Origin: Prochlorococcus sp. AG-311-D23
GTDB lineage: Bacteria > Cyanobacteriota > Cyanobacteriia > PCC-6307 > Cyanobiaceae
DNA: 42,677 bases
NCBI GenBank assembly: GCA_003284445.1
Contig: QBVH01000013.1
Span: forward strand, 1-42,677
Reading direction: 5' to 3'
Shown here piece after piece: positions 1,220-42,575 of this stretch. Every line of letters starts with the position of its first letter. Positions within the stretch are counted from its first letter, which is position 1. Position numbers and translations under genes: made by a program. The notes beneath the pieces are model-generated. The model saw only the letters and a program-made list of their open reading frames with translations. It was not told the origin of the DNA and ran no database searches.

Positions 1220-1447
1220 ATGACTAAGATCCCAAGTGCAGGTTTAGACCTGCGTAATTATTTTTTGTTTTGGAAAGATGTAATTGCCTTAACAGGTAAG
1301 TCTGAAATGACTATCCGAAGAGCGATAAAAAGGAATGAGTTTCCTTCCCCCGTGAAATTATTTCCTGGTGGCAGAAGTGTTGCTTTCAGGCAACCAGATG
1401 TCTACCTCTGGATCGAGGGGCGATGGTCTGCCGATGGAGGTAAGTAA
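1220..1447 (+). CDS. AlpA-like HTH regulator / excisionase (75 aa)
   Basis: This is a small MerR/AlpA-type winged-helix protein. Residues ~17-40 (FWKDVIALTGKSEMTIRRAI) form the helix-turn-helix, followed by a basic wing with FPSPVKLFPGGRS and VAFRQPDVYLWIEGR, the usual order for the prophage AlpA family. Members act as excisionases or activators of excision and are typically encoded beside P4-type integrases. Its stop codon overlaps the integrase start (TAATG at 1445-1449), so the two are translationally coupled from the promoter at 1112. The predicted role is to direct the integrase toward excision of element A. Family assignment is by motif; excisionase activity is inference. Confidence 0.8.
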   Translation: MTKIPSAGLDLRNYFLFWKDVIALTGKSEMTIRRAIKRNEFPSPVKLFPGGRSVAFRQPDVYLWIEGRWSADGGK

Positions 1448-2703
1448 TGTCTCTTACGGCAAGGAAGATAAACAACATCAAAGCATCGGATAAAGAGCAG
1501 TGGGAACCACTAGGTGGAGGTTGCTATTTGGTTGTGCCTAAATCAAAAGGAGCAAGGAAAAGATTTGTTGGGAAAACGAGGATCAATTCTCTTTCCGGAA
1601 AACTTTATTCAGTGCCTCTAGGTTTCTGGGGTGAAGATTTTAAAAAACCTCAAGAGGTTCTCAATAAATGGGAAGAGATGAAACTCTGGGGCAAATCAAA
1701 CAACCATGATCTAAGGAAGTATGGGAAGCAAATTGATCTAGTTAAATCTGATAAAACCTTTAAAGAAGTTGTTGACCTTTTTATTCAACATAAATCTCAC
1801 CTTCAAAAAACTGACTCCAATCAAACTTTTAGAAATCGATTTAACCGAATTCTTCAGAGATTGCCTGAAGGTATTTTGATTAGTGATCTTGCTGGGTATG
1901 AGGGAACACAATTTATAAAACAAAGAGTTCTGAACCCAGATATTGCTCAGGGGAAATTGCCAACGGCAAAAAGATATAGGCAATTGTTGAACAATGTCTT
2001 TGAATATGCGGTTATGGATCGACTCGTACATCCAGATCAAATTCCCTATCGATTAGATCTGAAATTTCCCTTTGAGGATGCACATAAATCAAAACCCCAT
2101 CCGCATCTTCCTTGGAATGAATTTCTCGACTTTATAAAGGTTCTCAACCTAAATCATTGTCATGCTGAGCGACTAACTGATCTGGCAACAAAGGCAGTTC
2201 TTTTGTCGCTCACAAGAGTTTCTGCTGTTGTGAGTATGCAATGGAATTGGTTTGATGATCAGCGAGATTGTTGGGTAATACCTTCAGCAACTAAGGGATT
2301 AAAAAGGAAGAAAGATGACTCAGTCAATGACCACTTGATCCCTAATACTCCTCAGTTGGAGACTTTAATGAATTCGTTGAGTGTAATTAATGGCAATCAA
2401 AAATATGTTTTCTTTAGTCCTTTTAAAGGGAACAACCCTTATCTATCCAAGCAAACTCCTAATGATCATTTAATTAATCTTGGGTATAAAGATCGGCAAG
2501 ATATTCATGGATTTAGGCATGTTGCTACTAATGCATTAGTTGATCTCGGTGGCATGGATGAACTCATGGTTTCTAGGTGCCTTGGACATTTACACAATGA
2601 TGGGGCGATTGCTCATTATGACTTTGCTAAGCGTCTTGATAAAAGGAGAGAGATTCATGAGTACTGGAATCAATTGCTGATTACGAAAGGACTGAGGATC
2701 TAG
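1447..2703 (+). CDS. int: Tyrosine recombinase / integrase of element A (418 aa)
   Basis: The length is typical of P4-like phage integrases. Residues 1-90 resemble the arm-binding beta-sheet domain, ~100-200 the SAM-like core-binding domain, and ~220-400 the catalytic domain. The visible catalytic set is Arg257 (SLTRVSA), a lysine-rich beta-hairpin near 284-289 (KGLKRKK), His354 and Arg357 (DIHGFRH), His381 (CLGHL) and nucleophile Tyr391 (AHYDF). All key residues are present, so it is probably active. It lies just inside att1 and points away from it. The likely substrates are att1, att2 and the 3' end of tRNA-Thr, with GGAACA repeats as arm sites. Its start overlaps the alpA stop. Confidence 0.92.
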   Translation: MSLTARKINNIKASDKEQWEPLGGGCYLVVPKSKGARKRFVGKTRINSLSGKLYSVPLGFWGEDFKKPQEVLNKWEEMKLWGKSNNHDLRKYGKQIDLVKSDKTFKEVVDLFIQHKSHLQKTDSNQTFRNRFNRILQRLPEGILISDLAGYEGTQFIKQRVLNPDIAQGKLPTAKRYRQLLNNVFEYAVMDRLVHPDQIPYRLDLKFPFEDAHKSKPHPHLPWNEFLDFIKVLNLNHCHAERLTDLATKAVLLSLTRVSAVVSMQWNWFDDQRDCWVIPSATKGLKRKKDDSVNDHLIPNTPQLETLMNSLSVINGNQKYVFFSPFKGNNPYLSKQTPNDHLINLGYKDRQDIHGFRHVATNALVDLGGMDELMVSRCLGHLHNDGAIAHYDFAKRLDKRREIHEYWNQLLITKGLRI

Positions 2704-3496: not shown

Positions 3497-5842
3497 TTGA
3501 TAAATTTAAATTTAGAAGAAATTAGTTTTGCTTCTGATAAAAGAGTTCTTAATCTTATAAATTCATCGGATGATTGGGTTTCTTTTCTTGAAAATAATAA
3601 TCGATTAGAAGATACTTCTGACATAAAAAAAATCAAAGGAAATGCTTTTGAATTGTTAACAATATTGCTCTTGATTAATGATCCCGTATATTCTTTAAAA
3701 CTAAAAAATGTTTGGCATAGCAGTAATTTACCTTTTCAAATATTAGACCTTTTAGGTCTTCAAAAACCAGAGGTAGGAGTTGATATTATTGCTGAAGATA
3801 ATGAAGGTAAATTTTGGGCAATACAATGTAAATTCCATCAAGATACAAATCTAAATATCACTTACGAAGAAGTAAGTCAGTTTTTTGGAGTGACTGAAAG
3901 ATTATCTACTTATCAAAAACTTAGTCATAGAATTATTAGTACTTCTTCAATAGATCTAAGTCCAAAAATAGAAAAAATTCATAAAGATAAATTGGGATAT
4001 ATTACTTATGCAGATTATTCAAATCTTGATCAAGATGACTTTAGTAATTTTCGATTATTACTAAAAGGGGAAACCTCATTAATTGAAGAAAGAGATCCTA
4101 GAGGGCATCAAAAGAAAGCAATTAGAAATTCATATGAATACTTTATTGAGGAAAATAATTCAAGAGGCAAATTAATACATCCTTGCGGTGCAGGAAAAAG
4201 TTTGACTGGTTTTTGGATATTTAAAGAACTTCAAGCAAAGAATGCCTTAATTGCTGTTCCAAGTTTGTTTTTGATTAAACAAACATTGAAAGAATGGGCA
4301 AAGGAATCAACTGCAAGAAAAGAAACTTTTGACTGGATTGTAATTTGCAGTGATGAGAAATCTAATGATTTTTCTGATGAACCATCAATGAGAAAGATTG
4401 ATTTAGGAATAAAAGTAGAGACTGATAAGGAAAAAATTGCTGAGTTTTTAAATAATCAAAATTCAAAAAATAAGATAGTTATTACAACTTATCAGAGTGG
4501 GCAGTCTCTTATAGATGGAATTAGGTTGGCAAATAATTTTCATTTTGATTTTGGAGTTTTTGATGAAGCACATAAAACTGCTGGAGATAAAAATAAGTCT
4601 TTTGCAAAACTACTTAAAGATGAAAATGTTGTAGTACAGAAAAGATTATTTATGACTGCAACTGAGAGAGTTTATAAAGGTAATTCAGATAAAATAATTT
4701 CAATGAATGATGAAGAAATCTATGGAAAAGTAATTCATCAACTCTCATTTAAATCTGCCTTAGAGCAACATCCACCAGTTTTATCAAACTATAAAATAGT
4801 CACCAACAGAGTTAATAAAAAATATATTCAGGAATTGATAAATGAGAATAAATTAGTGAGAGCAAATAATAAACAATGGAGTTACGATGCAGACTGCTCG
4901 ACATTTGCATCATTAATTAGTCTTAGACAATTAGTGAAGAATGAGAATCTTAAACATGTTGTTTCTTTCCATAGCAGTATTCCTCGATCTAAAGAATTTA
5001 AATTATTAAATGATCAGTTAAATACTTTCTCTTCAGAATTTGGAATTATTCATGCTTCGCAGATATCAGGTAAAGATAGTTCGGGAGTTAGAACTAAAGT
5101 TCTTTCTGAATTTAAATCAATAGAACCCAGTTTAATAACAAATGCAAGATGCTTAACTGAAGGGGTAGATATTCCAGTTATTGATGCTGTTTTATTTGCT
5201 GATCCTAAGAACAGCACAGTTGATATTGTTCAAGCAGCAGGTCGAGCAATGAGAAGGTGTGAAGGCAAAAAGTATGGATATATTATTGTTCCAATTATTG
5301 TTGATGAAGATGAGGAAGGTTCAATTCACAAGGATTCTTTCAAACAAATAATTAATGTGATTTCGGCAATGGGTATGAATGATGATCGGATAATTGCTGA
5401 GTTTCAAGCATTGGTTTTCAATCAACCTAGAGAAAGTAATATTTGTGATTTTGATTTTGAAAGTGTTGCAGAATCTATAAACTTGAAAGATTTTTATTTG
5501 AATATTCAAAATAAAGTATGGGATAGACTTAGTTTTGCAAAAAGTTTTATAGATGAATCTACATTCGAAACTTGGATGAGAACAGCAACCACACTAAGTG
5601 AGTCGTCAATTAAAAAATATGTTGGGGGAGTAAATAAGATGACTAATGAGTTAATTAAAATGAAACCTGAATACAGCAATATAGATGATTTAGTTACAAC
5701 TGAAGATCTTTCATTTTTAAAAAAAGAGTGGATGTCAGTTGAGGAAAATCAAGCATTAGATAAGAGACACAAAGGTATGTACAGTGCAGGATTCAACAAG
5801 TTAATTGAATATTCAAACTATAAGAAGTCTATAAAAGAGTAA
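3497..5842 (+). CDS. Mrr-like nuclease fused to DEAH superfamily-2 helicase (781 aa)
   Basis: Residues ~50-130 look like a restriction-endonuclease fold with GVD (94-96) and QCK (110-112), the D...(Q)xK signature of Mrr-type PD-(D/E)xK nucleases. Superfamily-2 helicase motifs follow: Walker A CGAGKS (230-235), DEAH (356-359), TAT (387-389) and QAAGRAMR (579-586). Such fusions resemble type III/IV restriction or single-protein phage-defence ATPases; no methyltransferase is nearby, so type IV-like restriction or another nuclease-helicase defence role is the best inference. The only in-frame start is TTG 3497 with no clear ribosome binding site. A different frame just upstream (GTG 3438, VATFDEFYQSKAIH) looks like a helicase N-terminus and may be the true start broken by a frameshift in the T-rich tract at 3485-3498. 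Confidence 0.8.
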   Translation: MINLNLEEISFASDKRVLNLINSSDDWVSFLENNNRLEDTSDIKKIKGNAFELLTILLLINDPVYSLKLKNVWHSSNLPFQILDLLGLQKPEVGVDIIAEDNEGKFWAIQCKFHQDTNLNITYEEVSQFFGVTERLSTYQKLSHRIISTSSIDLSPKIEKIHKDKLGYITYADYSNLDQDDFSNFRLLLKGETSLIEERDPRGHQKKAIRNSYEYFIEENNSRGKLIHPCGAGKSLTGFWIFKELQAKNALIAVPSLFLIKQTLKEWAKESTARKETFDWIVICSDEKSNDFSDEPSMRKIDLGIKVETDKEKIAEFLNNQNSKNKIVITTYQSGQSLIDGIRLANNFHFDFGVFDEAHKTAGDKNKSFAKLLKDENVVVQKRLFMTATERVYKGNSDKIISMNDEEIYGKVIHQLSFKSALEQHPPVLSNYKIVTNRVNKKYIQELINENKLVRANNKQWSYDADCSTFASLISLRQLVKNENLKHVVSFHSSIPRSKEFKLLNDQLNTFSSEFGIIHASQISGKDSSGVRTKVLSEFKSIEPSLITNARCLTEGVDIPVIDAVLFADPKNSTVDIVQAAGRAMRRCEGKKYGYIIVPIIVDEDEEGSIHKDSFKQIINVISAMGMNDDRIIAEFQALVFNQPRESNICDFDFESVAESINLKDFYLNIQNKVWDRLSFAKSFIDESTFETWMRTATTLSESSIKKYVGGVNKMTNELIKMKPEYSNIDDLVTTEDLSFLKKEWMSVEENQALDKRHKGMYSAGFNKLIEYSNYKKSIKE

Positions 5843-5860: not shown

Positions 5861-6010
5861 ATGCTTCTCTCCTCTTTAATTCGAGGCATCAAAAAAGCAC
5901 CTTGCTCTCTGGCATTAAGAAAGGGACCCTGCTGCATCAGCGACCTTGAGTCCCCTTCTTTCTCTGTCGACAGAACTAATACTGGTAAGGAGTTGTTCTG
6001 CTTTTGCTTT
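5861..6010 (-). ncRNA. Diverged relative of the Yfr1-motif RNA repeat
   Basis: On the minus strand this stretch keeps the 5' hairpin arms CAGAAC and GTTCTG around a loop with AACTCCTTACC, the GGTGCTTTTTTGATGCC segment and a late AGGAG complementary to CTCCT. It is a degraded version of the four copies at ~8 kb and ~42 kb. No convincing promoter or intrinsic terminator is retained, so it may be a relic. Open frames on both strands here (5861-6070 and 5845-6060) have no recognisable protein features. Confidence 0.45.
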
Positions 6011-7424: not shown

Positions 7425-7560
7425 CTAAGCAGCAGCATCACTTATCTGATGTTCCATTAGTTCCCAATCTTGAGTTAAGAGTTCATGCCAAGTTTCCATA
7501 GCAGAATCGAGATGAATTCTTCTTGTATTTTTTAATTTGGTTGGAGTGCCTCCCTTTGCT
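7425..7560 (-). pseudogene. 3' fragment of a second DUF1651 gene
   Basis: The minus-strand reading GGTPTKLKNTRRIHLDSAM and then ETWHELLTQDWELMEHQ, ending SDAAA-stop, matches the last 42 residues of the DUF1651 protein at 2943-3245. The 5' half is replaced abruptly near 7560 by unrelated sequence. The same junction is present in the inverted copy at the right edge, so the truncation pre-dates that duplication. Confidence 0.8.
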
Positions 7561-7611
7561 TACAGAATTATTGTTTAGTTGATTATCTTTAGAAGTATCT
7601 GAATTGCTCTT

Positions 7612-7812
7612 ATGGCAAAAACTGAAAATGATCTTGATATCTACTATGCAGTAGGAAATGCAAATACTTCTAGGCAGGAAACTGAAATTGGAGAAATCAT
7701 CAAAAAAAGAAATTCATTGGGATGGAAATTAGTTTCGACCAGTACTGCTGTTGTTGATACGAGCAAACAATTCTCGAACCTCTATCTTTTTTGGGAAAAA
7801 CAATATGAGTAA
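7612..7812 (+). CDS. DUF4177-like small protein (66 aa)
   Basis: The pattern of an N-terminal strand (DLDIYYAVGN), a helix (EIGEIIKKRNSLGWKLVST) and a final strand with FSNLYLFWEK resembles small DUF4177-type proteins with their GW(E/K)LV motif. The function is unknown. It overlaps the next small gene by 8 bases (ATGAGTAA), indicating coupled translation. An identical copy lies in the right inverted repeat. Confidence 0.55.
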   Translation: MAKTENDLDIYYAVGNANTSRQETEIGEIIKKRNSLGWKLVSTSTAVVDTSKQFSNLYLFWEKQYE

Positions 7813-7948
7813 GAGAAAAGAGAATTTCAATGTGACGCAGGGCATGACCTTGTTACTTCTTAAAAAACTTTCATTGCCAGCAAACCTAGTCTTTCAAATA
7901 ATTCTCTTTATTACTGATCCTGAAAACAATATTGGGTATGAAGATTAA
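7805..7948 (+). CDS. Small hypothetical protein (47 aa)
   Basis: I start it at ATG 7805, which overlaps the stop of the upstream gene; an upstream in-frame start at 7751 lies deep inside that gene and is unlikely. The protein MSKRKENFNVTQGMTLLLL continues to a hydrophobic centre and an acidic tail (DPENNIGYED). It is an identical duplicate of 42188-42331. No function is recognised. Confidence 0.5.
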   Translation: MSKRKENFNVTQGMTLLLLKKLSLPANLVFQIILFITDPENNIGYED

Positions 7949-7954
7949 TAGGCA

Positions 7955-7984
7955 CAAAAAAACCTGCCCGAAAGCAGGTTCTTT
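7955..7984 (-). terminator. Intrinsic terminator of RNA copy 1
   Basis: The stem AACCTGC/GCAGGTT is followed on the minus strand by a run of seven T residues. The plus-strand side has a weaker TTCTTTT tract, so it could also end the small-gene operon 7612-7948. Confidence 0.85.
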
Positions 7985-8183
7985 TGTGAGATCAGGCGTA
8001 AGTGTTTCCTTGTTTCCACTACGGAGGATCTCAACTCCTCACAAATGGAACCTATCGGAACAGGATTAGGAACAAACCTTTAGCAGGTGAGTTTATTGAT
8101 TGTCACAGGTACAAAGGCACTAAAAAAGCACCCTATTGGATGCCCTTTTGGTACAGAACTATGTGTGAGGAGTTGTTCTGTCT
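7955..8183 (-). ncRNA. Candidate small RNA with Yfr1 motif, copy 1 (~229 nt)
   Basis: On the minus strand a promoter-like TTGTTG, 17 nt and TATAAG (8191-8196) precede a predicted start near 8183. The RNA would open with a hairpin (stem ACAGAAC/GTTCTGT) whose loop presents ACUCCUCACAC (8173-8163), the ultraconserved Yfr1 motif. A middle stem (GTACCAAAAGGGC with GCCTTTGTACC) follows, then UGUGAGGAGUUG (8042-8031), complementary to the loop, and a helix GGAUCUC/GAGAUC. It ends in a terminator (7980-7961) with seven U residues. No protein signature is seen in the overlapping open frames. Three further copies exist in this window. Confidence 0.6.
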
Positions 8184-8366
8184 CTCTATTCTTATATACC
8201 AAGACGAAGATTGCAACAACAAAAATAATCTCTTAAATATCGTCTTCACTATTTCCAAATGGGTTGTATCTGACATTGAAAATCAAAGTCGCTGCAATGC
8301 TTAAAAGCAAAAGTCCAAAAACAACTTGTGGAGGAGGGAAAATCATCAAATCACTCTAGAGAAGAC

Positions 8367-8602
8367 ACAAAAAAACCGCCCAGTTCTGTTTGGGCGGTTT
8401 CTTAGTGAGATCAGGCGTAAGTGTTTCCTTGTTTCCACTACGGAGGATCTCGACTCCTCACAAACGGAATTTATCGGAACAGGACTAAGAACAAACCCCT
8501 AGCAGGAGGGTTTATTGATTGTCACAGGTACAAAGGCACTAAAAAAGCACCCTATTGGATGCCCTTTTGGCACAGAACTATGTGTGAGGAGTTGTTCTGT
8601 AT
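8367..8602 (-). ncRNA. Candidate small RNA with Yfr1 motif, copy 2 (~236 nt)
   Basis: It has the same plan as copy 1: a promoter-like TTGTTG-17-TATAAG with the -10 at 8610-8615, a start near 8602, a 5' hairpin with ACUCCUCACAC in the loop (8592-8582), a complementary UGUGAGGAGU segment (8461-8452) with one changed pair beside it, and a different but equally strong terminator (AAACCGCCCA/TGGGCGGTTT, 8400-8373, then seven U). The different terminator sequence with preserved hairpin supports selection for an RNA end. Confidence 0.6.
8369..8400 (-). terminator. Intrinsic terminator of RNA copy 2
   Basis: A 10-bp GC-rich stem with a 7-8-nt loop is followed on the minus strand by seven T residues at 8375-8369. 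Confidence 0.88.
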
Positions 8603-8830
8603 CTCTATTCTTATATACCAAGACGAAGATTGCAACAACAAAAATAATCTCTTAAATATTGGGAAAAGTTAGTGTTCCAAAAAGGGCACGGTATGCAAAC
8701 GATCATTCAGTAAAATTAAAATCATTAAAAATTCCAGGAGACTATGTTCTTTGCGTTTCAATAACACTGTTTTGTTGATAAAATATTGACATAAGTAATT
8801 CAATAAGAAACGCCATAGTTTCTGGAACAG

Positions 8831-9466
8831 ATGAAAACACAATCCAAGTTCCAAAGAGAAAAACCACTATTCAGGGATAAACCTGAATACAAATGCATTG
8901 GATATGCGAGGCAATCCACCAACAAGCAAATCTCTATTGGTGCTCAAGTTGAAGAGTTAAAGAAAGCAGGTTGCGTTGTTGTTTTCCAAGAGACTGTTTC
9001 AAGTGCAGATAAAGCAAGACCACAATTTGAGGCAGCATTAGGAACCCTGGAAGAGGGAGATGAAATCGTATTCACCAAATTAGATAGAGGATTTAGAAAT
9101 CAAAGGCAGTGCATTAACACCCTCCATGACCTTCAAGAAAAAGGGATCCATGTGAGAACAACCGATGGAATGATCAATACCAGAGCACTGGGAAAGTTTG
9201 CTCCAATTGTGATTGGTCTTTTAAGTGGAATCGGAGAAGTTGAGCGTCAGATGGTGATTGAGAGAACGCAAGAATCTATTAACCACAGAAGAGAAACAGG
9301 AGGAAATCTTGGAGGTAGACCGAAGACAAATGATGAGAAAGAAGGTTTGGTTTTGCGTTTAAGAAATGAAGGTTGTTCTTACCGTTCAATTAGAAAACAA
9401 ACTGGACTTGCTTTATCAACCATCCGAAGAATTATTGTTGAGCAAGATGTGGTGATAGAGGTATGA
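8831..9466 (+). CDS. Serine recombinase, resolvase/invertase type (211 aa)
   Basis: The catalytic domain has the nucleophile Ser29 in IGYARQSTNKQ and the arginine cluster KLDRGFR (83-89), followed by SGIGEVERQMVIERT of the long E helix. The C-terminal helix-turn-helix is at ~175-205 (GCSYRSIRKQTGLALSTIRR). The length fits small resolvases and invertases rather than large serine integrases. It starts the operon 8831-10069 with overlapping genes. Its likely substrate is a nearby dyad-rich segment (8752-8830) or the flanking inverted repeats. It could resolve element multimers or invert a segment; both are inference. A truncated copy with Ser changed to Thr exists at 41138-41305. Confidence 0.9.
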   Translation: MKTQSKFQREKPLFRDKPEYKCIGYARQSTNKQISIGAQVEELKKAGCVVVFQETVSSADKARPQFEAALGTLEEGDEIVFTKLDRGFRNQRQCINTLHDLQEKGIHVRTTDGMINTRALGKFAPIVIGLLSGIGEVERQMVIERTQESINHRRETGGNLGGRPKTNDEKEGLVLRLRNEGCSYRSIRKQTGLALSTIRRIIVEQDVVIEV

Positions 9467-9657
9467 GCAAGAAGACAGAAATAATGAAGGCAATGGATGA
9501 ATGCGTAGTGAATGCTTGCGAGCAAATGAAATCTCTTAATCCTCAAGAAAGGTTCCACCTTTTGTGTGAGATGGGTGAGTGGATGTATAACCCCCTTTCT
9601 GAAGAAATAGATGATGTATTGATGGTTCCTAATTTTGGAGAGAAGGAGGCAGCATGA
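9463..9657 (+). CDS. Small hypothetical protein in resolvase operon (64 aa)
   Basis: The start overlaps the recombinase stop by 4 bases (ATGA). It is an acidic helical protein (IMKAMDECVVNACEQMKSL, FHLLCEMGEWMYNPL) without a recognised domain, and its stop overlaps the next start. In the decayed element at the right edge a different small gene takes the same position after the truncated recombinase, so this slot is variable. Confidence 0.6.
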   Translation: MSKKTEIMKAMDECVVNACEQMKSLNPQERFHLLCEMGEWMYNPLSEEIDDVLMVPNFGEKEAA

Positions 9658-9851
9658 CTAGAAAAAACATAGGCGGATTAAATGATTACATTGTCTTGAA
9701 GGAAGAGAAGGAAGTTGTCTTCTATTTGCATAATCCCTATCCAGATTGCTTAGAAATTCCAGCAATAATGAAGCAAAGGTTTCCTGATGATTACAAGAGC
9801 ATTGTCACCAGTGACTTAGAGGAGTTCAAAAAGTATGGAGAGAAAGTGTGA
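9654..9851 (+). CDS. Small hypothetical protein, paralogue of next gene (65 aa)
   Basis: The start overlaps the upstream stop (ATGA). The C-terminal pattern KEEKEVVFYLHNPYPDCLEI, then IMKQRFPDDY and LEEFKKYGEKV, parallels the following gene (KEESKEIWAL, RMKKSFPDYEL, FLRMGGKI), so the two are ancient tandem duplicates. The fold is probably strand-helix-strand. The function is unknown. Confidence 0.55.
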   Translation: MTRKNIGGLNDYIVLKEEKEVVFYLHNPYPDCLEIPAIMKQRFPDDYKSIVTSDLEEFKKYGEKV

Positions 9852-12279: not shown

Positions 12280-12327
12280 GCGTTAATTAGCAAACTCTCC
12301 AGTATTAGCAACGAATTAGCATTAAAA

Positions 12328-12352
12328 AAGAGACCCTTTGAGGTCTCTTTAG
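12328..12352 (+). terminator. Hairpin at right end of element A
   Basis: An 8-bp stem AAGAGACC/GGTCTCTT (12328-12335, 12342-12349) with a short T tract, 33 bases left of att2. The plus strand is T-rich after it and the minus strand has an A/T tract as well, so it may isolate both elements transcriptionally. Confidence 0.65.
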
Positions 12353-12378
12353 TGCGGTTGAATCTCTTTGATGTCCCT

Positions 12379-12431
12379 CCGACGATGCCCTCGTCGGGAC
12401 TTGAACCCGAGACCTCTCCCTTACCAAGGGA
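12379..12431. repeat. att2: 47-bp copy of tRNA-Thr 3' end between elements A and B
   Basis: Positions 12385-12431 are identical to 23852-23898, the 3' 46 nt of tRNA-Thr(GGU) plus one base. On its left the sequence CCGACGA (12379-12385) is a perfect inverted repeat of TCGTCGG (12391-12397) around TGCCC. This is the classic layout of a tyrosine-integrase core site in a tRNA 3' end. Confidence 0.9.
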
Positions 12432-12544
12432 ATGGTTGATATTCTTTAAATCCTTGTAATCTATTGGTATGATTGGACTATTTCTAGGTTTCCCTAGGCC
12501 TAGAAATAGCTTGATATAACCAGATACATCGACTTGTTAGCATT

Positions 12545-12638
12545 TTGGCTCTAAAATTGGCTCTAATCAGATCTGAATAATCGCAGTGATCTCAAAGGAT
12601 TTATGGGTGTCTGGATTACGGAGAAGTATTGGCTCTAA
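12545..12638. repeat. TTGGCTCTAA arm repeats, left end of B
   Basis: Three exact copies of TTGGCTCTAA lie at 12545-12554, 12557-12566 and 12629-12638, the last inside the integrase reading frame. TTGGCTCTAG and a partial TGCTCTAA occur at the right end (23750-23771). They probably bind the element B integrase. Confidence 0.6.
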
Positions 12639-13941
12639 TTTTGGTAAGGGTTGGAGGGTTATTGGAGAAGCTTCAGGGCTTACTAAATTGACCTATGTTT
12701 ATCAAGAATTTAAAGGAGTTGGAAATAAGAAAACGGCAAAAACTTTGCCTATAAAATGGGAACCAACTTCACAGGTAGAGATCCTCAAAGCAATTGAATT
12801 TATAAAGCCTCTTGTAGTTGAAAAAAATCTGACTCTTAATGAGGCCGCTAGAAGATGGAAAGCTCAGTTCATTGGAGAGGAGAAAACAGCTCCGAATAAA
12901 AACTGGAATGATTTTCTATTGATTCCTCCACTTAAAGGAAGATTGAAAACGGATAAAGAAGAGGACAGAAAAAATTATGCAGCGTACAAAAAAGAGGCTG
13001 CGAAAGTTGACCAGTTTATGACCACGAAACAGGGTCTATCAAGAAAAACTGAAAAGGATTGGGGTAGAAGAATTAATAGATTTTTAGAGGTGATGAATAA
13101 AAAGCCCGCACCAAATACAGGCACGCAGCTCATAAAACTTTGTGCTGAAAATTTTGGTGAGATTGAGCCTGATGAGAAAAAAAGATATTTAGATGCTTGG
13201 TGCGAAATCTTGCAATATGGAATCACTAGGCACTCAATGAATGAGAAAAGGTGGCAAACACCTGACGAGGATTACAGGAAAGAATTAATCGGAAAAAGCA
13301 ACAGGACTGAAGATGACAAGTTGACTCCTTATGTAGAGGAATCAGATTTGTTGAATTTGTTGGACTCTCTGGAATCAACTAACAAAGAATTATTTTTGGC
13401 CACGGCCTTGATCTCTTTATTTGGTTTGAGGCTTAGCGAGCTGGCTGTTCTAACTGTTCACGATGGGAATTTATATGTTGGTCACATCAAAAAGAATGTG
13501 AATACTTCCTCAAAGAGAAGAGAGCCTAGAAGAGCTTTCGCCATGGACTTGGTAGGCAAAACAAGCCTAGGGGCAAATGTTTTAAGACTCTATGAATCAG
13601 GAGTTGTCAAACTGCCTAAAGCGGTTCTGAACCAGATAGAGAAGGTACAAGAAAAGAACACATATGGGGATGTTGGTCAGGCTTATGTCCAAATACTTGA
13701 GAGAAATGAAGTTTGGAAAAACATCGTCAAAAACAATACTGATATAACTCCCTACTCACTAAGGCATAGGTTTGCCCATCAATGTCATAAAGGCTCTACG
13801 GTTCCTCTTTCTGTTAAAGATGCCGCCGCCGCAATGGGGCATACGCCTACTACTCACATGAATTTTTATGCAAGATATACAACAGAGTTAAGCGTTGCTA
13901 AAGCCTTCGAAAGGCATCTAGAGAATCGGATCGCAGTATGA
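12586..13941 (+). CDS. int: Tyrosine recombinase / integrase of element B (451 aa)
   Basis: The catalytic set is visible: Arg282 (FGLRLSELAVL), His394/Arg393 region (TPYSLRHRFAH, with the usual leading His replaced by Ser), His419 (AAMGHTP) and nucleophile Tyr428 (NFYARY). Residues ~80-230 form the core-binding domain. The N-terminus with RSIGSNFGKGWRVIGEASG is typical of picocyanobacterial integrases as I recall them. I keep the GTG start at 12586; no ATG with a good ribosome binding site is closer. The gene starts 155 bases right of att2 and reads away from it. Its target is predicted to be tRNA-Thr. It is unrelated in detail to the element A integrase, yet both use the same tRNA. Confidence 0.9.
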   Translation: MISKDLWVSGLRRSIGSNFGKGWRVIGEASGLTKLTYVYQEFKGVGNKKTAKTLPIKWEPTSQVEILKAIEFIKPLVVEKNLTLNEAARRWKAQFIGEEKTAPNKNWNDFLLIPPLKGRLKTDKEEDRKNYAAYKKEAAKVDQFMTTKQGLSRKTEKDWGRRINRFLEVMNKKPAPNTGTQLIKLCAENFGEIEPDEKKRYLDAWCEILQYGITRHSMNEKRWQTPDEDYRKELIGKSNRTEDDKLTPYVEESDLLNLLDSLESTNKELFLATALISLFGLRLSELAVLTVHDGNLYVGHIKKNVNTSSKRREPRRAFAMDLVGKTSLGANVLRLYESGVVKLPKAVLNQIEKVQEKNTYGDVGQAYVQILERNEVWKNIVKNNTDITPYSLRHRFAHQCHKGSTVPLSVKDAAAAMGHTPTTHMNFYARYTTELSVAKAFERHLENRIAV

Positions 13942-14005
13942 AAAAGATTAAACAATAGTTATTCCCATTTTTACGAATGTTTTAATTAACGGGCAAAATA
14001 GATAA

Positions 14006-14836
14006 ATGAAAAAGCTTTTAGCTGTTTTAATCGCAACTAGTTCTTCACTTGTTCAATTAGGTGGAGTTAGACCTGTTAATGCAAATGAAAATGAAGGATG
14101 GGTTTCTGTTGGACTTGACTTGAAAACAGGTTTCGATGCTCAGTGGATAAAAGTTAAAGAAGCTAAGCAAGTCAACAAAGACTCTTACAAAGTACCTTTA
14201 AGGGATTTAGATATTTATTCAAAAAGTCTAAAAATTAATTGCAGAAATAAGGACATCAGTTTCAAGGGATTTGGCTGGCAACAAATTCCAACTGATTCCT
14301 CCTGGGGTTTAATGGCACAGATCCTTTGCCGCTTTAATCCTGCAAGAGATCTTTGGGGAATGACTAAGGAAAATGCTTTTCTATGGAATGCTCCAATCCC
14401 TCAAACCGAGCCTGGAAGTGCTGATGGGGATTGGATTCAGGTGGTCAATAATGATAAGAATGAAGAGTACTACAACGACAAGGTGAAGAGTGATGGAAAG
14501 GTAGCTATTTTCTCGAGATATACAAGGGATAAAAAAGCAGATTATGGAGAAGGCACTCAAAGAGATGTTGAAAAATATAAATGGATAATTAGTGACTGTA
14601 ATTCAAATAAATACTTTGCTTGGTTAACGGCCTCTCCTAAATTCTTTAAGGGGTTTTGGGTCGGGCCAAGGACTGCAAGCCCTAATAGTTCTTCTATGGT
14701 CGTTAAGAGAAAATATTGTAAGTCGCCTAATTCCCCAGTTATTGGATCGTTACCAATTCCTTCACTTGATGATCTCACTCGTTTTCAAGTCAATAAAAAG
14801 AATGATTTTGGAAATAAGTATTCTTTCGATGATTAG
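14006..14836 (+). CDS. Secreted hypothetical protein (276 aa)
   Basis: A signal peptide spans ~1-26 (MKKLLAVLIATSSSLVQLGG then VRPVNA). The mature part starts with an acidic EGWVSVGLD region, has two or more tryptophan-rich strands (WQQIPTDSSWGLM, RDLWGMTKENAFLW) and four well-spaced cysteines (near 81, 112, 199 and 238) that could form disulfides. It is probably periplasmic or surface located. It resembles small beta-rich proteins that recur in picocyanobacterial islands, but I recognise no family. It sits between the integrase and the metalloprotease on the same strand. Confidence 0.7.
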   Translation: MKKLLAVLIATSSSLVQLGGVRPVNANENEGWVSVGLDLKTGFDAQWIKVKEAKQVNKDSYKVPLRDLDIYSKSLKINCRNKDISFKGFGWQQIPTDSSWGLMAQILCRFNPARDLWGMTKENAFLWNAPIPQTEPGSADGDWIQVVNNDKNEEYYNDKVKSDGKVAIFSRYTRDKKADYGEGTQRDVEKYKWIISDCNSNKYFAWLTASPKFFKGFWVGPRTASPNSSSMVVKRKYCKSPNSPVIGSLPIPSLDDLTRFQVNKKNDFGNKYSFDD

Positions 14837-15033
14837 CCGAGATCTTCAAATAAATTCTCCTCAAAAGTATCGACTAAAAGTTTTGGATAAAAAGTTTGAA
14901 TATTCGAGAGGACTTATACAAGTAATCTGATTCTATGGAATGCGTTTACCTAATAAGAGATAACGAAAGCGGTCTTTACTGAGATGACTGGTTTTGGGTA
15001 AAGTAAAAACAACTGTCACATGAATTTTAAAAA

Positions 15034-16863
15034 TTGAACTTAGATAGTCAAACTTATAAACAATCAAATCAATCAATCGAATTAGTTGATAAATCTGGAC
15101 TAATTCATATTGATCCACTTTTTAATAATCGTTATGGAAAACCAATTAGATGGATTAGTGATCCGACGTTAACTAAAAAAGAAGGATTTACAAAAATCAC
15201 CTATAGTCTTCCAGGTATAAATGGAAATAATTTATTATTTAATTATGAAGATGATAGAGGCACAATCAATGCCTCATCCTTCACATCAGAACAAGCAGAA
15301 GATATAAGAAAAATATTTAATAATATTAGTAATTATATTAATATCGAATTTATTGAGATTCAAGAAATAGGTGATAATGTAGGGACGATAAGACTTGCAT
15401 TAAATACAATTACCGATGAAGCTGGTGTTCATAGACCTGGAATAGTCGCTACTGCTGATCCACCTGCAGAAGAGGCAAGAGGAGGAGATGTATGGTTCAA
15501 TATTAATTTCAATAATTCAAACTTTAGTGATGGATTAGTGATTGGATCGCAAACGGGAGTTGGTGATGTGACTGTAATGATACATGAAATATTTCACGCT
15601 CTGGGTCTTGAACATCCAGGTGATAATAGCGCCTTTCCGGAAGATAAAGACTCGAGAGAATTCACAGTAATGGCTGGGGAGTTTAAAAAAGAAGGAGGAG
15701 CAGAATACATCAACAACAATCAATCATATATAGTTGCGTCCACTCCAATGATTTATGATATTGCGCCTTTACAATACCTCTATGGAGCTAATACTTTATA
15801 TAACTCCAGTGATACAAATTATTCATACAATCCAAATACACCCTTTATAGAGACAATTTGGGATGGAGGCGGGAATGATACTTTAGATTTCAGTAATTTC
15901 AATAAAAAAAACATACTTAATCTTGAAGATGGACAATCATCAACAATTGGTTTTGATGTTAATTGGTCCTTAGTCGACAATTTAGGAATTGCCTTTAATG
16001 CCATCATTGAAAATGCAGTAGGTGGTTCAGGTGATGATCAAATTACAGGCAATAAGTACAAAAATAATATTCAAGGCAATGCTGGTGACGATGCGATTGA
16101 TGGTGGCAGTGACTATGATATAGCAGCTTATTCAGGGAATTTCTCTGACTACACCTTTACGATTGCTGACAAGAAAGTAACTGTTAAAGATAATCGCTCA
16201 TCAACTAATGATGGAACAGATACATTATCTAATATTGAAAAACTTACCTTTGCAGATAAAAATGCTTTGGTCACAAGCAAAGAGATTAAATCAATTACTT
16301 CTCTAGGCATCCAATCAGAAAAGATTTATTCCGGTAAAAGTGATACTTATAAATTTTATGATTTAGGTAGTGATAAGTATGGTGTGGGTACAACTAGTGG
16401 GATTGATGAACTCACCGGTGCGTCTCTGCTTAAATTTGACGATAAAAGCCTTCATCTTGTAAGTGACATAAAAGCAACGTTTGATCAAGTCACAGGCTTG
16501 AAAACTGGCTCAGGTGAAATGTTCCGTCTATACAACGCAGCTTTTGCACGCTTCCCTGATGCTGATGGACTCAAGTATTGGATTGATCAATTCAGTTCTG
16601 GACGTAACACTAGACGTGTAGTTGCTCAATCATTTTTAGGTTCTGCAGAATTTACTGAGAAGTATGGAAGCAATGTAAGTGATGAGACATACGTCAACAA
16701 TCTCTATAAGAATGTGCTTGGAAGAGATGCTGACACTGAAGGACTTAACTACTGGGTAGGAAACCTAAGCAGTGGACTTGAAACTCGCTATGAAGCGTTA
16801 CTAGGGTTTGCTGAGTCAGCAGAGAATAAAGCACTCTTTACTGACATGACGGGGTTTGGGTAA
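15034..16863 (+). CDS. Serralysin-like RTX metalloprotease with DUF4214 tail (609 aa)
   Basis: The zinc-binding signature HEIFHALGLEHPG (His184, Glu185, His188, His194) defines a metzincin of the M10/serralysin type, with a Met-turn candidate Met239 (MIYDIAPLQYLYG). Calcium-binding RTX-type glycine-aspartate repeats lie at ~270-365 (GGGNDTLDF, GGSGDDQITGN, GNAGDDAIDGG). Residues ~490-600 contain a double DUF4214 repeat (FARFPDADGLKYWIDQ and VLGRDADTEGLNYWVG), often found on secreted or surface proteins. No Sec signal is present, consistent with type I secretion. Start TTG 15034 is the only suitable one. It is likely secreted or surface-bound cargo degrading extracellular protein. Confidence 0.85.
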   Translation: MNLDSQTYKQSNQSIELVDKSGLIHIDPLFNNRYGKPIRWISDPTLTKKEGFTKITYSLPGINGNNLLFNYEDDRGTINASSFTSEQAEDIRKIFNNISNYINIEFIEIQEIGDNVGTIRLALNTITDEAGVHRPGIVATADPPAEEARGGDVWFNINFNNSNFSDGLVIGSQTGVGDVTVMIHEIFHALGLEHPGDNSAFPEDKDSREFTVMAGEFKKEGGAEYINNNQSYIVASTPMIYDIAPLQYLYGANTLYNSSDTNYSYNPNTPFIETIWDGGGNDTLDFSNFNKKNILNLEDGQSSTIGFDVNWSLVDNLGIAFNAIIENAVGGSGDDQITGNKYKNNIQGNAGDDAIDGGSDYDIAAYSGNFSDYTFTIADKKVTVKDNRSSTNDGTDTLSNIEKLTFADKNALVTSKEIKSITSLGIQSEKIYSGKSDTYKFYDLGSDKYGVGTTSGIDELTGASLLKFDDKSLHLVSDIKATFDQVTGLKTGSGEMFRLYNAAFARFPDADGLKYWIDQFSSGRNTRRVVAQSFLGSAEFTEKYGSNVSDETYVNNLYKNVLGRDADTEGLNYWVGNLSSGLETRYEALLGFAESAENKALFTDMTGFG

Positions 16864-16866
16864 CAA

Positions 16867-17055
16867 ATGAAGACCTACCTAATACTTGCACTCACCGCCA
16901 CACTCATCTTCCCCACCCCATCACAATCGGACACCAATCACTTTGGTGCAGGAGGTGTCTTCGAATTGGATCTAGGTGATAGTGAAATACCTTTGACACC
17001 TAAACAAGAAAGAGAACAAAAACTTTTAGAAGAACAATTGAAGAAACAAAAATGA
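16867..17055 (+). CDS. Small secreted protein (62 aa)
   Basis: It starts three bases after the protease stop. A signal peptide (MKTYLILALTATLIFPTPSQS) precedes a short acidic segment FGAGGVFELDLGDSEIP and a lysine/glutamate coiled tail (TPKQEREQKLLEEQLKKQK). The position suggests co-transcription with the protease, perhaps as an accessory envelope peptide; function unknown. Confidence 0.6.
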   Translation: MKTYLILALTATLIFPTPSQSDTNHFGAGGVFELDLGDSEIPLTPKQEREQKLLEEQLKKQK

Positions 17056-17173
17056 CGACTTGCTAAATTTTTTTTAGGGAGTACTGGATCTGTTAAAAGT
17101 CCATTTTTAAGGGGGGTGTGATCCATTGAAAAAATAAGTTACCTTTGATACAAATTGATAGAAGTACATCATT

Positions 17174-17338
17174 TTGGCCGTATCGCAAAAGGCTTCTAAA
17201 AAGGACTATTCGAAAGTTACGATCAACCTGCCCAACAACTTGATTGACTTTGTCGATGAACTCAAAATTGAATGGGGATTGAAGAGTCGAGAAAGTGTTT
17301 TTACACGACTCCTTGAAACGATTTCCGAAAACGACTAA
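17174..17338 (+). CDS. Ribbon-helix-helix protein (54 aa)
   Basis: The TTG start gives MAVSQKASKKDYSKVTINLP followed by NNLIDFVDELKIEWGLKSRE and SVFTRLLETISEND. The strand KVTINLP, helix LIDFVDELK, turn and second helix ESVFTRLLETI are the ribbon-helix-helix (CopG/Arc) pattern, so it is probably a small repressor or copy-control regulator upstream of the replication genes. A longer open frame on the opposite strand (17093-17566) is its shadow. Confidence 0.7.
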   Translation: MAVSQKASKKDYSKVTINLPNNLIDFVDELKIEWGLKSRESVFTRLLETISEND

Positions 17339-17751
17339 GACATAAAATATGGGCCTAGGGGTGGATCTTATACAGAAGATACAACGAAAGATGATCGCTC
17401 TTGTCGGAGATATTTTTAATAGGTTTTCGTGGTAAAGGAGGCTGGAATAAAGGATTAAAAGGGGTGCAATCATTGCTGGAGTCGTAATTGCGATTTTGCT
17501 AGGTTTATTTATAAAAAAATTTCCAATATTAAAGTGTCTTCTGGGGGGGGATAGCAAACTAACCAAAAGTTATTCATCTTTCAGACAAACCTCCCGAAGC
17601 GTTTTAAATAAGTTGTTATATCTGCTTGGATGTCTATAGTATCAACAGACCAAATAGGAGAGGCTGATCCGAATCTGGATGCCTGCCATTCTCTCCACAT
17701 CTGAAGAAATTCAGGAAATAGAAGCAGATCAATAACTAATTAAATTTAAAA
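17339..17751. other. Intergenic stretch with gene remnants upstream of the primase module
   Basis: It has a hydrophobic reading (AIIAGVVIAILLGLFIKKF near 17470-17525) without a standard start, and a run of eight G at 17543-17550 where frame is lost. A 3' remnant of the 59-aa gene at 20895 follows (KVIHLSDKPPEAF-stop at 17566-17607). The stretch looks like decayed small genes. Confidence 0.45.
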
Positions 17752-18000
17752 ATGCCAGAACAAAATTGGCTGCCTACGACTCAGGCAGCGCTCTCTTTGG
17801 GGGTTTCACCCCAGCATTTAAAAAAGTGTCGAACAGATTATGAAGATGGTTTTCTAGTAGAGGAAGAGCATTATGTCTTTGGACGAAATGCCAACAGTTC
17901 TATTCTTTGGCATGTCCCAGAAGTTAGAAAGGCTTTTCACCAGAGGGGCAAGATTCACAGACTTGGGAGTCAGGTAGTAGCAGAGATAGGAGCAAAATAA
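17752..18000 (+). CDS. HTH DNA-binding protein coupled to primase (82 aa)
   Basis: The region WLPTTQAALSLGVSPQHLKK is a helix-turn-helix of excisionase/MerR-like type, followed by EEEHYVFGRNANSSILWHVP and a basic tail. Its stop overlaps the primase start (TAATG at 17998-18002). Such a small HTH gene fixed before a primase-helicase suggests a replication initiator accessory, origin-binding protein or excisionase for element B. Which of these is not decided by sequence. Confidence 0.7.
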   Translation: MPEQNWLPTTQAALSLGVSPQHLKKCRTDYEDGFLVEEEHYVFGRNANSSILWHVPEVRKAFHQRGKIHRLGSQVVAEIGAK

Positions 18001-20378
18001 TGACTGATCAAATCTCTAACCATTCCCCTAGTAAGGGAATAAATTATGCTGCAAAGTCAATTGCAAGAACTAAGTTTAGGGATATTAATTCGAGGAAATT
18101 AGAGCCAAAACTAGAGCGGGAGTTGCTTGAAAGTGGAATTGCAAAGGATCTTCAGAAGTTTTTAAATTACTTCTCTGTGAGTAGAGATCAGGCGAAAGAG
18201 CTTGTGGAACACAACTATGCAGGTTGGGTGGTTCTATACAGAGATCCTTCTGGAAAACCTTATGAACACAATGGAAAACCTTTCTACAGATTGAAGCCTG
18301 ATAGTGGTCAATTAACAGGAGATAAACCACCAAAATATTTAAGTCCTAAAGATGGAGGCTGTCGCCCCTATCTCTCGCCCTTGCTCGGTAGAGAAATTCT
18401 TTTAAATGCAAATAAGCAAATAATAATTACTGAGGGAGAAAAGAAGGCTGATTGCTTAAACGCCTATGGATTTTCGACAATTGGATTAGCTGGTGTTGAT
18501 TGTTGGACTGATGGAAGAACTGATAAGGGAGAGATGCTTCCTGAATTACAAAAAATTCCATTGAAAAATAGGGAAGTTCGTATTCTTTTTGACTCTGATG
18601 TGGTCATTAAAGACACTGTGATGGCAGCCCAGAAGAGATTATGTGAGGCACTAAAAAAGGAAGGGGCAAGAGTCAGGATTGTTCAAATGCCAACTGAATT
18701 AAATGGAGACAAAAATGGAGCGGATGATTTTATCGTTAGGCACGGCAAAGAGGACTTACAGAGGCTTATAGGAATAGCCAGAGAGGCTTTCAACGGAAAG
18801 AACTATTTATGGCAACCAGAGCCACAACAATCTCATCACGTTGCTTTAATTGCTAAACCAGCCATTGAGCAAAACTATGCTTATAGCCCTGTTCATGGCC
18901 TTATTGAATGGGTTGGTACTAAATGGGAAAGTCTGGAAGAGAAGCCTAAAGACGCCTTGTCAGTTCCTTTGCATGAGTGGATGGATTTAATGAATTGGGA
19001 GAAAAGATCTTCTCATCACTTCAATTCAATAAAAGATGAATTATTGACTCGCATAAGGCAAAAGAGCTGGAACCCTCCGCATCTATTGAGCTTTAATAAT
19101 GGGACTTACAACATCAAGACAGACTCATTTATTCCTCTCCACAATAAAAAAGATTATTTAACTCATTCCTTTGATTTTGATTTTGATCGTTCAGCAAAAT
19201 GTCCTCGGTTTGAAAAATTCTTGAATGAAAGTTTTGAGAGTGATAAGGAATTAATTGAATTACTTCGAGCAGCTTTCAAGTGGTCGCTCATTCCAAAAGA
19301 TAGAAAAAAGGCTTTTGAAATAGATCCATTTTTTGATTTATTTGGTAGAAAAGGAAGCGGCAAAGGAACCCTGTTAGAAGTGCTGATGGCGGTGGTAGGT
19401 GGAGAGGGTTCTTATGGAATTATTCGTCCTAATACTCTTGATAAACCAACAAGTAGGTATTCCTTGGTTGGAAAAAAAATCGCAATAGATCCAGACTCAA
19501 GTGGTCACATAAAAAACGTAGGGATATTTAATTCAATCGTTACTAACGAACCTGTAGAGGTTAAAAAGTTATTCCTAAATGAATTTTTTGCGAGACTAGG
19601 TGTTGTTGTCTGGAGGGCTTTCAACGACAATCCATCCGCATCTGGAGGAGGATTGGAGGGGATGGGTAGAAGAATAGTGACTTTTGAATTTAAAAGAATT
19701 TCTTCTAACCCTGATCCAACTTTAAAAACGAAGTTATTAGAGGAGGTCGCTGGAATTTTTCAATGGTGTTGGTCTATGAGCAAAGAAGATGTAATTGAAA
19801 CTTTTAAAAATAGAGGAAATATTGAATCCGTTGCAAATGCCTCAATAGAAAATCTTTTGGATAACAATCCTCATATTCGTTTTTTACAAGAAAATTATTT
19901 TGAGAGTTTTGTTGAGGTAAACGCTTCAGACCTTTATGAAAGATATTGTGAATGGTGTCAGGAGTGGAACCATGGAAAACTTTCCCAGACAAAATTTGGG
20001 AGGGAGCTGATAAAGCTGCATGGTTTGATCGAAAAGGACAGAAATGCTGCAGGGTTTTACTACAAGATCAAAGCGTTTAAAGATTTCGACTTAGCCGTTC
20101 ACTTTGGGATGAAAAATAATGCAGGGTCAACCATGCAGAAGCCGTCAACCATGCAACCCAACCCTTCATGCTCTAAGCCCAGTGAGGCAAAGGGAAGTCA
20201 AAAGGCTGTGCATAGTATGAATAGTTCTTTAAATAAGAAGGATTCAATTAAAAAAAATAAAAAAGATATAGAAAAAGAATTTATCCAAAAAACCATGCAA
20301 ACCCTTCAACCATCCATGGTTGGATCGGGTTGGGATGTTGGTTCGGATGATGATCCTTACTGCGGTGAAAACAATTAG
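18000..20378 (+). CDS. Primase-helicase (TOPRIM/DUF3854 plus superfamily-3 ATPase, 792 aa)
   Basis: Residues ~60-250 contain a DUF3854-like TOPRIM domain: IITEGEKKADCLNAYGF (Glu145) and RILFDSD (197-200). A D5/P4-type superfamily-3 helicase follows, with Walker A GRKGSGKGT (449-457), an acidic strand KIAIDPDSSG and FNDNPSASGGGLEGMGRR late in the ATPase. A winged-helix-like segment (~640-700) and a low-complexity polar tail complete it. It probably primes and unwinds DNA for element B replication. Full-length proteins of this layout are seen in phages, plasmids and phage satellites. Translation is coupled to the upstream HTH gene. Confidence 0.85.
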   Translation: MTDQISNHSPSKGINYAAKSIARTKFRDINSRKLEPKLERELLESGIAKDLQKFLNYFSVSRDQAKELVEHNYAGWVVLYRDPSGKPYEHNGKPFYRLKPDSGQLTGDKPPKYLSPKDGGCRPYLSPLLGREILLNANKQIIITEGEKKADCLNAYGFSTIGLAGVDCWTDGRTDKGEMLPELQKIPLKNREVRILFDSDVVIKDTVMAAQKRLCEALKKEGARVRIVQMPTELNGDKNGADDFIVRHGKEDLQRLIGIAREAFNGKNYLWQPEPQQSHHVALIAKPAIEQNYAYSPVHGLIEWVGTKWESLEEKPKDALSVPLHEWMDLMNWEKRSSHHFNSIKDELLTRIRQKSWNPPHLLSFNNGTYNIKTDSFIPLHNKKDYLTHSFDFDFDRSAKCPRFEKFLNESFESDKELIELLRAAFKWSLIPKDRKKAFEIDPFFDLFGRKGSGKGTLLEVLMAVVGGEGSYGIIRPNTLDKPTSRYSLVGKKIAIDPDSSGHIKNVGIFNSIVTNEPVEVKKLFLNEFFARLGVVVWRAFNDNPSASGGGLEGMGRRIVTFEFKRISSNPDPTLKTKLLEEVAGIFQWCWSMSKEDVIETFKNRGNIESVANASIENLLDNNPHIRFLQENYFESFVEVNASDLYERYCEWCQEWNHGKLSQTKFGRELIKLHGLIEKDRNAAGFYYKIKAFKDFDLAVHFGMKNNAGSTMQKPSTMQPNPSCSKPSEAKGSQKAVHSMNSSLNKKDSIKKNKKDIEKEFIQKTMQTLQPSMVGSGWDVGSDDDPYCGENN

Positions 20379-23852: not shown

Positions 23853-23924
<72 letters not shown>

Positions 23925-41141: not shown

Positions 41142-41305
41142 TTCTTCTTCCCATATTCAGCATTTATTAAGTCACCAAAAAATCCTCTGGTTTCTTCTTT
41201 GCGTGCTTGCTTATTCGTAGTTTGGCGAGCGTGCCCAATGGATTTGTATTCAGGTCTTTCACTGAAAAGTGGTTTTTCTCTTTGGAATTTTGCTTGTGTT
41301 TTCAT
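41138..41305 (-). pseudogene. Truncated serine recombinase with Ser-to-Thr change (55 aa)
   Basis: The first 33 residues match the recombinase at 8831 (KTQAKFQREKPLFSERPEY, IGHARQTTNKQ), but the catalytic Ser29 reads Thr and after NKQ the sequence diverges to a short unrelated tail and stop. Over 170 residues including the arginine motifs are missing, so it is inactive. It marks where homology of the inverted repeat ends (~41205). Confidence 0.85.
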
Positions 41306-41533
41306 CTGTTCCAGAAACTATGGTGTTTCTTATTGGATTTCTTATGTCATTATTTTATCAATAAAACAGTGTTATTGGAACAGTAAAACCCTTGTTTTCA
41401 TTAATATTTTATATTTTAATTTGCACCGCCATGGTGTTCCCTTATTACCCCCTTTTTGGAACGCTAATTTTTCCCAATATTTAAGAGATTATTTTTGTTG
41501 TTGCAATCTTCGTCTTGGTATATGAGAATAGAG

Positions 41534-41769: not shown

Positions 41770-41952
41770 GTCTTCTCTAGAGTGATTTGATGATTTTCCC
41801 TCCTCCACAAGTTGTTTTTGGACTTTTGCTTTTAAGCATTGCAGCGACTTTGATTTTCAATGTCAGATACAACCCATTTGGAAATAGTGAAGACGATATT
41901 TAAGAGATTATTTTTGTTGTTGCAATCTTCGTCTTGGTATATAAGAATAGAG

Positions 41953-42181: not shown

Positions 42182-42187
42182 TGCCTA

Positions 42188-42524: not shown

Positions 42525-42575
42525 AAGAGCAATTCAGATACTTCTAAAGATAATCAACTAAACAATAATTCTGTA

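Follow-up and report, generated by a model that had tools for sequence, protein, structure and literature searches.

The locus at 7954-8601 of the window (the whole stretch of 42,677 nucleotides of Prochlorococcus sp. AG-311-D23 analysed here) very probably consists of Yfr10-Yfr2 small-RNA pairs of the high-light Prochlorococcus kind, with Yfr10 acting on mRNAs and Yfr2 titrating it, which are duplicated in island-like DNA and probably have a recombinase travelling along. A two-RNA unit is present twice on the minus strand: the 264-nt blocks 7977-8240 and 8396-8659 are 94% identical, with their starts 419 nt apart, in agreement with the two tandem copies described in the sequence-only reading of this DNA. 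That reading took each repeat for a single RNA unit of about 230 nt; the repeat holds, but it contains a Yfr10 with its own terminator and then a Yfr2 (Cyano-1, the Rfam name under which Yfr2-type loci of MED4 match). From 5' to 3', the unit is composed of a promoter-like block, the Yfr10 hairpin, the Yfr10 terminator, a spacer of ~73 nt, Yfr2 and the Yfr2 terminator. In the first pair, Yfr10 lies at 8541-8601 (minus strand; 73.1 bits with our covariance model R1 and 24.6 bits with Rfam RF02362, below its gathering score of 43) and Yfr2 with its terminator at 8370-8467 (minus; RF01701, 60.5 bits at 8403-8467; terminator 8403-8370). The second pair has Yfr10 at 8122-8182 (minus; R1 70.4 bits, RF02362 25.5 bits, also below 43) and Yfr2 at 7954-8048 (minus; RF01701, 61 bits at 7984-8048), with a terminator assigned from sequence. 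Between the pairs lies a small ORF of 38 codons, ORF38 (8233-8349, minus), for which tblastn gives relatives in 38 of 128 units, downstream of Yfr2 and on the same strand.

The Yfr10 hairpin has the stem ACAGAAC/GTTCTGT, present as first described and covarying in relatives, and its loop carries AACTCCTCACACATA. The proposal of multicopy small RNAs with the Yfr1 motif is borne out, ACUCCUCACAC being found in the hairpin loop of all four window copies. The window has 10 occurrences of ACTCCTCACAC with at most one mismatch, 0.48 being expected, and none of 100 shuffles reached this number; four of the occurrences are in hairpins, four are complementary to Yfr2 5' ends and two are elsewhere. The seven-U terminators reported earlier as differing in sequence and alike in form belong to Yfr2, whose terminators have seven T, whereas those of Yfr10 have six T and the same letters in both tandem copies. 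A promoter-like block upstream of the first Yfr10 (8602-8640, minus) contains the conserved ATnAGAA; indeed, in homologues ATnAGAA just upstream of the stem is the conserved promoter-like block of the window's Yfr10 subtype, and TTGTTG is not conserved. A consensus scan of 7900-8900 gave no sigma-70 site. From the TTGTTG-17-TATAAG promoter first suggested, the TATAAG/TATGAG variant remains, but not a conserved TTGTTG.

Since the match of RF02362 (Yfr10) to the left window copies is below its cut-off, our own covariance model, R1, was built; the Rfam model gives 99, 82.7 and 60.3 bits on MED4 Yfr10, Yfr12 and Yfr18, and its score of only ~25 bits in the window follows from the different letters of the window stem. 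R1 comprises 26 of 84 genus hairpins located upstream of Yfr2, hand-picked for diversity, with one window Yfr10 among them and no MED4-locus sequence. The 84 hairpins were required to have CTCCTCAC with at most one mismatch and a stem of at least 7, so decayed copies would escape this set. All 45 rows of the alignments of R1 and of R2, the model of the third RNA discussed below, occur letter for letter in their source loci. Scoring in the window's genus covered 96 sources, with 12 short loci left out, and the alignment kept 150 of 163 matches. In the R1 structure, 97.3% of cells are paired, compared with 36-53% in slid versions; 9 of 20 pairs are changed on both sides, seven of them in the terminator and two in the motif hairpin, and none of 500 shuffles was as good. 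Exact ACTCCTCACAC is conserved in 78 of the 84 hairpins, a selection-biased set. The case named in the sequence-only reading as refuting, hairpin and motif decaying neutrally in homologues, was not observed, stem and terminator both covarying. With R1, itself a model that includes the motif, 10 more copies came to light upstream of Yfr2, some with an altered motif. Among 251 genomes of the family, R1 reaches E 0.001 or better in 45, including 16 from the window's genus, and has no match in 186.

In the MED4 genome (G187), R1 gives three matches at E 0.001 or better, 346661-346729 (+), 383217-383286 (+) and 972253-972321 (-), which coincide with the published Yfr10 (346661..346738), Yfr12 (383230..383312) and Yfr18 (complement(972284..972388)) (Steglich et al. 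2008, PMC2518516); the first match starts at the published base 346661. The Rfam Yfr10 and Cyano-1 models match the same three loci. Since R1 leads to these published loci, the window hairpin RNA is, as judged from its sequence, a Yfr10 homologue. The window RNAs belong to a known family, and the earlier statement that no described family has this layout does not hold. According to the passages of the MED4 study available to us, Yfr10, Yfr12 and Yfr18 share the Yfr1 motif and adjoin Yfr2, Yfr4 and Yfr5; Yfr10 is located in genomic island 1, Yfr12 and Yfr18 outside islands, and Yfr10 and Yfr2 have a common 270-nt precursor (PMC2518516). The window RNA resembles this family (RF02362) by the Yfr1 motif in a 5' hairpin loop, by a terminator hairpin, by its position directly upstream of a Yfr2 RNA and by an island location like that of MED4 Yfr10; its stem letters, ACAGAAC/GTTCTGT, are different. 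It also has ACUCCUCACAC in common with Yfr1, but the Yfr1 motif is reported to be single-stranded between two stem-loops (PMC6778093), whereas the window motif is in a hairpin loop; the Yfr10 motif has likewise been placed in a loop on a stem (PMC6778093). In this assembly, which is 76% complete, no canonical Yfr1 carrying the exact ten-base motif was detected. Rfam matches to STnc370, OrzO-P and others over the locus were rejected as below gathering scores.

The four window Yfr2 copies score 60.5-62 bits with RF01701 (gathering score 41). They share the 5' GUGAGGAGU and the loop GGAAACAAGGAAACA with the Yfr2 family (Yfr2-Yfr5; 60-62 bits) and differ from it in that two copies occur at a spacing of 419 nt, each accompanied by a Yfr10 of its own. 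In the genus, 128 Yfr2 copies are distributed over 38 of 41 genomes, with one to six in each. A Yfr10-type RNA is situated upstream of 94 of them by either of two criteria, and none was detected for 34, one of which has only 34 nt of contig upstream. In 72 of the 84 pairs, the Yfr10 loop can form an uninterrupted Watson-Crick helix of at least 10 bp with the 18 nt at the 5' end of its own Yfr2, a length that none of 1680 mononucleotide shuffles attained; since the copies are related to one another and the pairs were selected by means of both motifs, this count describes pairing and does not prove it. In this respect the genus pairs differ from the MED4 Yfr10-Yfr2 pair, which has 6 contiguous Watson-Crick pairs, or 7 with G-U. 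Duplex energy did not separate the two window Yfr10-Yfr2 pairs from shuffles, 23 and 177 of 300 being at least as stable; for the third RNA with the two Yfr2, these numbers were 207 and 160 of 300. The best duplexes in this calculation spanned whole RNAs, with their own folds ignored.

In MED4, Yfr2 is reported to bind Yfr1 and Yfr10 (Lambrecht et al. 2019, PMC6778093) and to abolish the binding of Yfr1/Yfr10 to ppa mRNA in vitro; high-light strains have Yfr10 homologues upstream of Yfr2, and Yfr1 and Yfr10 targets overlap (PMC6778093). Published MED4 work describes pairing of the Yfr10 motif with mRNAs in coding and 5' regions. By analogy, the window Yfr10 (~61 nt) would expose ACUCCUCACAC in its hairpin loop and pair with mRNAs, whereas Yfr2, just downstream on the same strand, would pair with this loop by means of the complementary UGUGAGGAGU at its 5' end and titrate Yfr10. 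We infer this titration in the window because of the MED4 precedent and the uninterrupted match of at least 10 bp. Of the idea that these RNAs mimic or sponge Yfr1 regulation, the mimicry is in line with the published target overlap, but the sponge would be the neighbouring Yfr2 and not the hairpin RNA itself. The pair would then have undergone a tandem duplication and a further, inverted one, within island-like DNA that carries copies of the 3' part of tRNA-Thr; the adjacent serine recombinase probably travels with the pair.

The repeat in inverted orientation is present at 41535-42182. Its arm, 41450-42677, located 33 kb away, shows 6 differences from 7459-8686 among 1228 positions (99.5% identity) and is therefore not an identical echo; the next 216 nt are only 81% identical. 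One of the six differences is the TATAAG/TATGAG variant, and all are located within 8044-8673, which spans both Yfr10 copies up to the 5' end of the second Yfr2. The second copy is therefore likely genuine in its proximal part. The distal 585 arm positions are identical to the left copy and the contig ends exactly where the arm ends, so this part could be a repeat collapse. On the plus strand, the inverted copy includes a first Yfr10 at 41535-41595 (R1 74.2 bits, its letters being those of one of the 26 model sequences), a first Yfr2 with terminator at 41669-41766 (RF01701, 60.5 bits at 41669-41733), a second Yfr10 at 41954-42014 (R1 70.4 bits) and a second Yfr2 with terminator at 42088-42182 (RF01701, 62 bits at 42088-42152), both terminators being assigned from sequence; RF02362 gives the two Yfr10 copies 26.2 and 25.5 bits. 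A truncated serine recombinase remnant adjoins this copy (41207-41305, minus; codons 1-33, 79% identical, tblastn). Recombination between the inverted copies may keep the arms near-identical.

The location in island-like DNA also holds: the window has repeats derived from tRNA-Thr, one serine recombinase and two tyrosine recombinases, the second of these weaker. A copy of the tRNA-Thr 3' part, a likely attachment site, lies at 12385-12434 (plus; 98% of 50 nt), the tRNA-Thr gene itself being at 23853-23924. The left-hand repeat is weak: 894-976 is 80% identical to 12322-12404 and has little tRNA in it. The tyrosine recombinase at 1447-2703 (plus; PF00589, 28.9 bits, cut-off 27.1) is situated between these two repeats, and a weaker one at 12586-13941 scores 20.8 bits, under the same cut-off. 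The stretch may thus be a tRNA-targeted integrative element of the kind called tycheposon-like, for which flanking copies of a tRNA 3' part and an internal tyrosine recombinase would be expected. DNA like 12322-12434 is also found within a few kb of Yfr2 in several genus genomes, in a search biased to stretches around Yfr2, and therefore one Yfr2 copy may be anchored at the island. The stretch between the two tRNA-Thr copies, 12586-20378, carries the tyrosine recombinase-like gene, an M10 metalloprotease/DUF4214 protein and a D5_N/DUF3854 gene, and is possibly a second element. A 781-aa protein with Mrr_cat_2 endonuclease, ResIII and Helicase_C domains, encoded at 3497-5842, resembles a restriction or defence gene. 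The RNA was also considered as phage-borne. Among viral contigs, GGAAACAAGGAAACAC occurs in 20 stretches, in all of which the 45 preceding bases lack the Yfr2 5' motif, and ACAGRACAACTCCTCACAC has 0 matches; in a distant blastn, the locus matched none of 50,697 phage records. On present evidence, a phage origin was rejected.

The RNA pair is divergent from a small serine recombinase of the resolvase type (8831-9466, plus; 211 aa; PF00239, E 7.8e-28). Close homologues of it (at least 79% DNA identity over at least 438 bases) are found at 10 places in the 41 genus genomes, window included. A divergent Yfr2 copy is present 305-554 nt upstream at nine of these, and the tenth (G031:C4) lies 197 nt from a contig end. 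Of three more distant homologues, two have a Yfr2 at 1.1 kb and 3.8 kb, and the third has none within 5 kb and an R1 match 234 nt upstream. Weaker matches to the recombinase occur in G000:C6, G006, G016, G024 and G035:C24. Downstream and flank counts refer to stretches around Yfr2 copies, in which 15 of the 128 copies have a close recombinase within 5 kb. The module is ~3 kb from tRNA-Thr in G005, and the core block flanking the island is 18-29 kb from the module in G005 and the window and ~327 kb from it in G007; thus, the module occupies at least two genomic places. Alignments with G005, G007, G012, G037 and G040 end at window position 9854/9855. This break need not be the module end because the G031 alignment continues through it to 10308 and a small ORF ends at 9851. 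Two small ORFs, in a head-to-tail overlap, lie downstream of the recombinase at 9463-9851, and DNA of the second (9639-9846) also occurs near Yfr2 units that are devoid of the recombinase. Among seven named contigs with a relative of the recombinase, six are labelled Prochlorococcus and one Euryarchaeota. The latter (L068:2849-3469, labelled Euryarchaeota TMED129) encodes a 75% identical serine recombinase, carries neither the three RNA motif strings nor an R1 match, and is either misbinned or the result of a transfer.

Other interpretations have to be weighed against Yfr10-Yfr2 pairs duplicated in an island. The recovery of all three MED4 RNAs by R1 and the position upstream of Yfr2, common to MED4 and the window, make it most improbable that the hairpins form a new element-specific family, unrelated to Yfr10 and merely mimicking the Yfr1 motif, though the Rfam Yfr10 score is under its cut-off and similar loops could arise by convergence. 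If the duplication or its inverted copy were instead an assembly artefact, one could understand why arm and contig stop at the same point, why the distal 585 positions match the left copy completely, and why contig C42 of the same genome ends in a fragment whose ORF38 has the identical protein sequence. The six differences in 8044-8673, covering both Yfr10 copies, and the distinct recombinase remnant in the flank of the inverted copy render such an artefact improbable.

The pair could belong to a recombinase-borne mobile cassette, in which the enzyme moves or inverts the module, with recombination taking place at the RNA genes or at repeats close by. This would suit the divergent Yfr2 at nine of ten close-homologue places, the distance of the module from the core block (~327 kb in G007 versus 18-29 kb in G005 and the window), the five genome alignments that stop at 9854/9855 and the inverted copies that are 99.5% identical versus 81% over the next 216 nt. 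However, such a recombinase is within 5 kb of only 15 of 128 Yfr2 copies, the G031 alignment crosses 9855 to reach 10308 with 9851 being a small-ORF end, distant homologues are 1.1 kb, 3.8 kb or more from Yfr2, and neither a recombination site nor an empty site was identified; we consider this cassette rather unlikely. Slightly less than an even chance may be given to the pair being an ordinary host regulator that is in the island by history, with neutral duplications and the recombinase as a bystander. Indeed, Yfr2 is present in 38 of 41 genus genomes, in 1-6 copies each, and MED4 Yfr12 and Yfr18 are reported outside islands (PMC2518516), but the duplicated copies of the window keep motif, hairpin and pairing, and the recombinase adjacency recurs across genomes.

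A third, Yfr10-like hairpin RNA, X, lies at 5912-6001 (minus; 99.8 bits with R2, this copy being in the model), with the seed ACUCCUUACC and its own long terminator-like hairpin. It falls in 5861-6010, a region that the sequence-only reading had grouped with the four copies. In the stretches covered around Yfr2, loose blastn gave relatives at 71 places, some of them other sequence or Yfr10. The order Yfr10-Yfr2-ORF38-X was found by regular expression in 27 of 128 units, at least one of them false; false matches of the X expression fell on the Yfr2 terminator at two loci (G002:386958, G030:C8) and on other sequence at two more (G007:51198, G018:C13), although G030 carries a real X at its false-match locus. 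Among 36 downstream copies, the seed is ACUCCUUACC in 24 and ACUCCUCACA in 5, and 27 could form a helix of at least 11 bp with their own Yfr2, G-U allowed, a count with no shuffle control. R2 was built from 19 of 50 distinct X extracts. Covariation is modest in the X structure (94.3% paired; double changes in 5 of 23 pairs, none in the seed hairpin; 0 of 500 shuffles). Of the 251 genomes, 24 have an R2 match, namely 16 from the genus and eight more in which it is weak; in MED4, R2 finds nothing at E 1 or better, and X matches no Rfam family. Identity of X with Yfr11 or Yfr16 was rejected, since there are just 7-nt matches to these MED4 RNAs. A second X in the same genome (G000:C42:5319-5408) adjoins a contig-end ORF38 of identical protein sequence.

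The Yfr10-Yfr2 order, the island location, the common precursor and the sponging of Yfr10 by Yfr2 are already published for MED4, whereas the tandem and inverted duplication, the recombinase neighbour and X may be new. The portions of the open-licence literature covered do not mention a tandem pair with an inverted repeat, nor the recombinase link or the third RNA, the latter being a weak negative with most subscription papers outside its scope. On a speculative and doubtful note, islands might spread a dual-RNA cassette, with the serine recombinase beside Yfr10-Yfr2, often plus the small ORF and an X whose seed has shifted to ACUCCUUACC yet still pairs with Yfr2 via G-U wobble; copy number and seed drift would then retune the host Yfr1/Yfr10 regulon, one scaffold yielding new target sets. 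With the claim of an undescribed family corrected, the window is now tied to a small-RNA circuit on which experiments have been carried out in Prochlorococcus MED4. Should both the recombinase link and X hold true, they would illustrate the way in which a regulator in a minimal genome is multiplied and diversified by island DNA, and the many natural copies, with their covarying stems and shifted seeds, would constitute a test set for the loop bases that set the targets.
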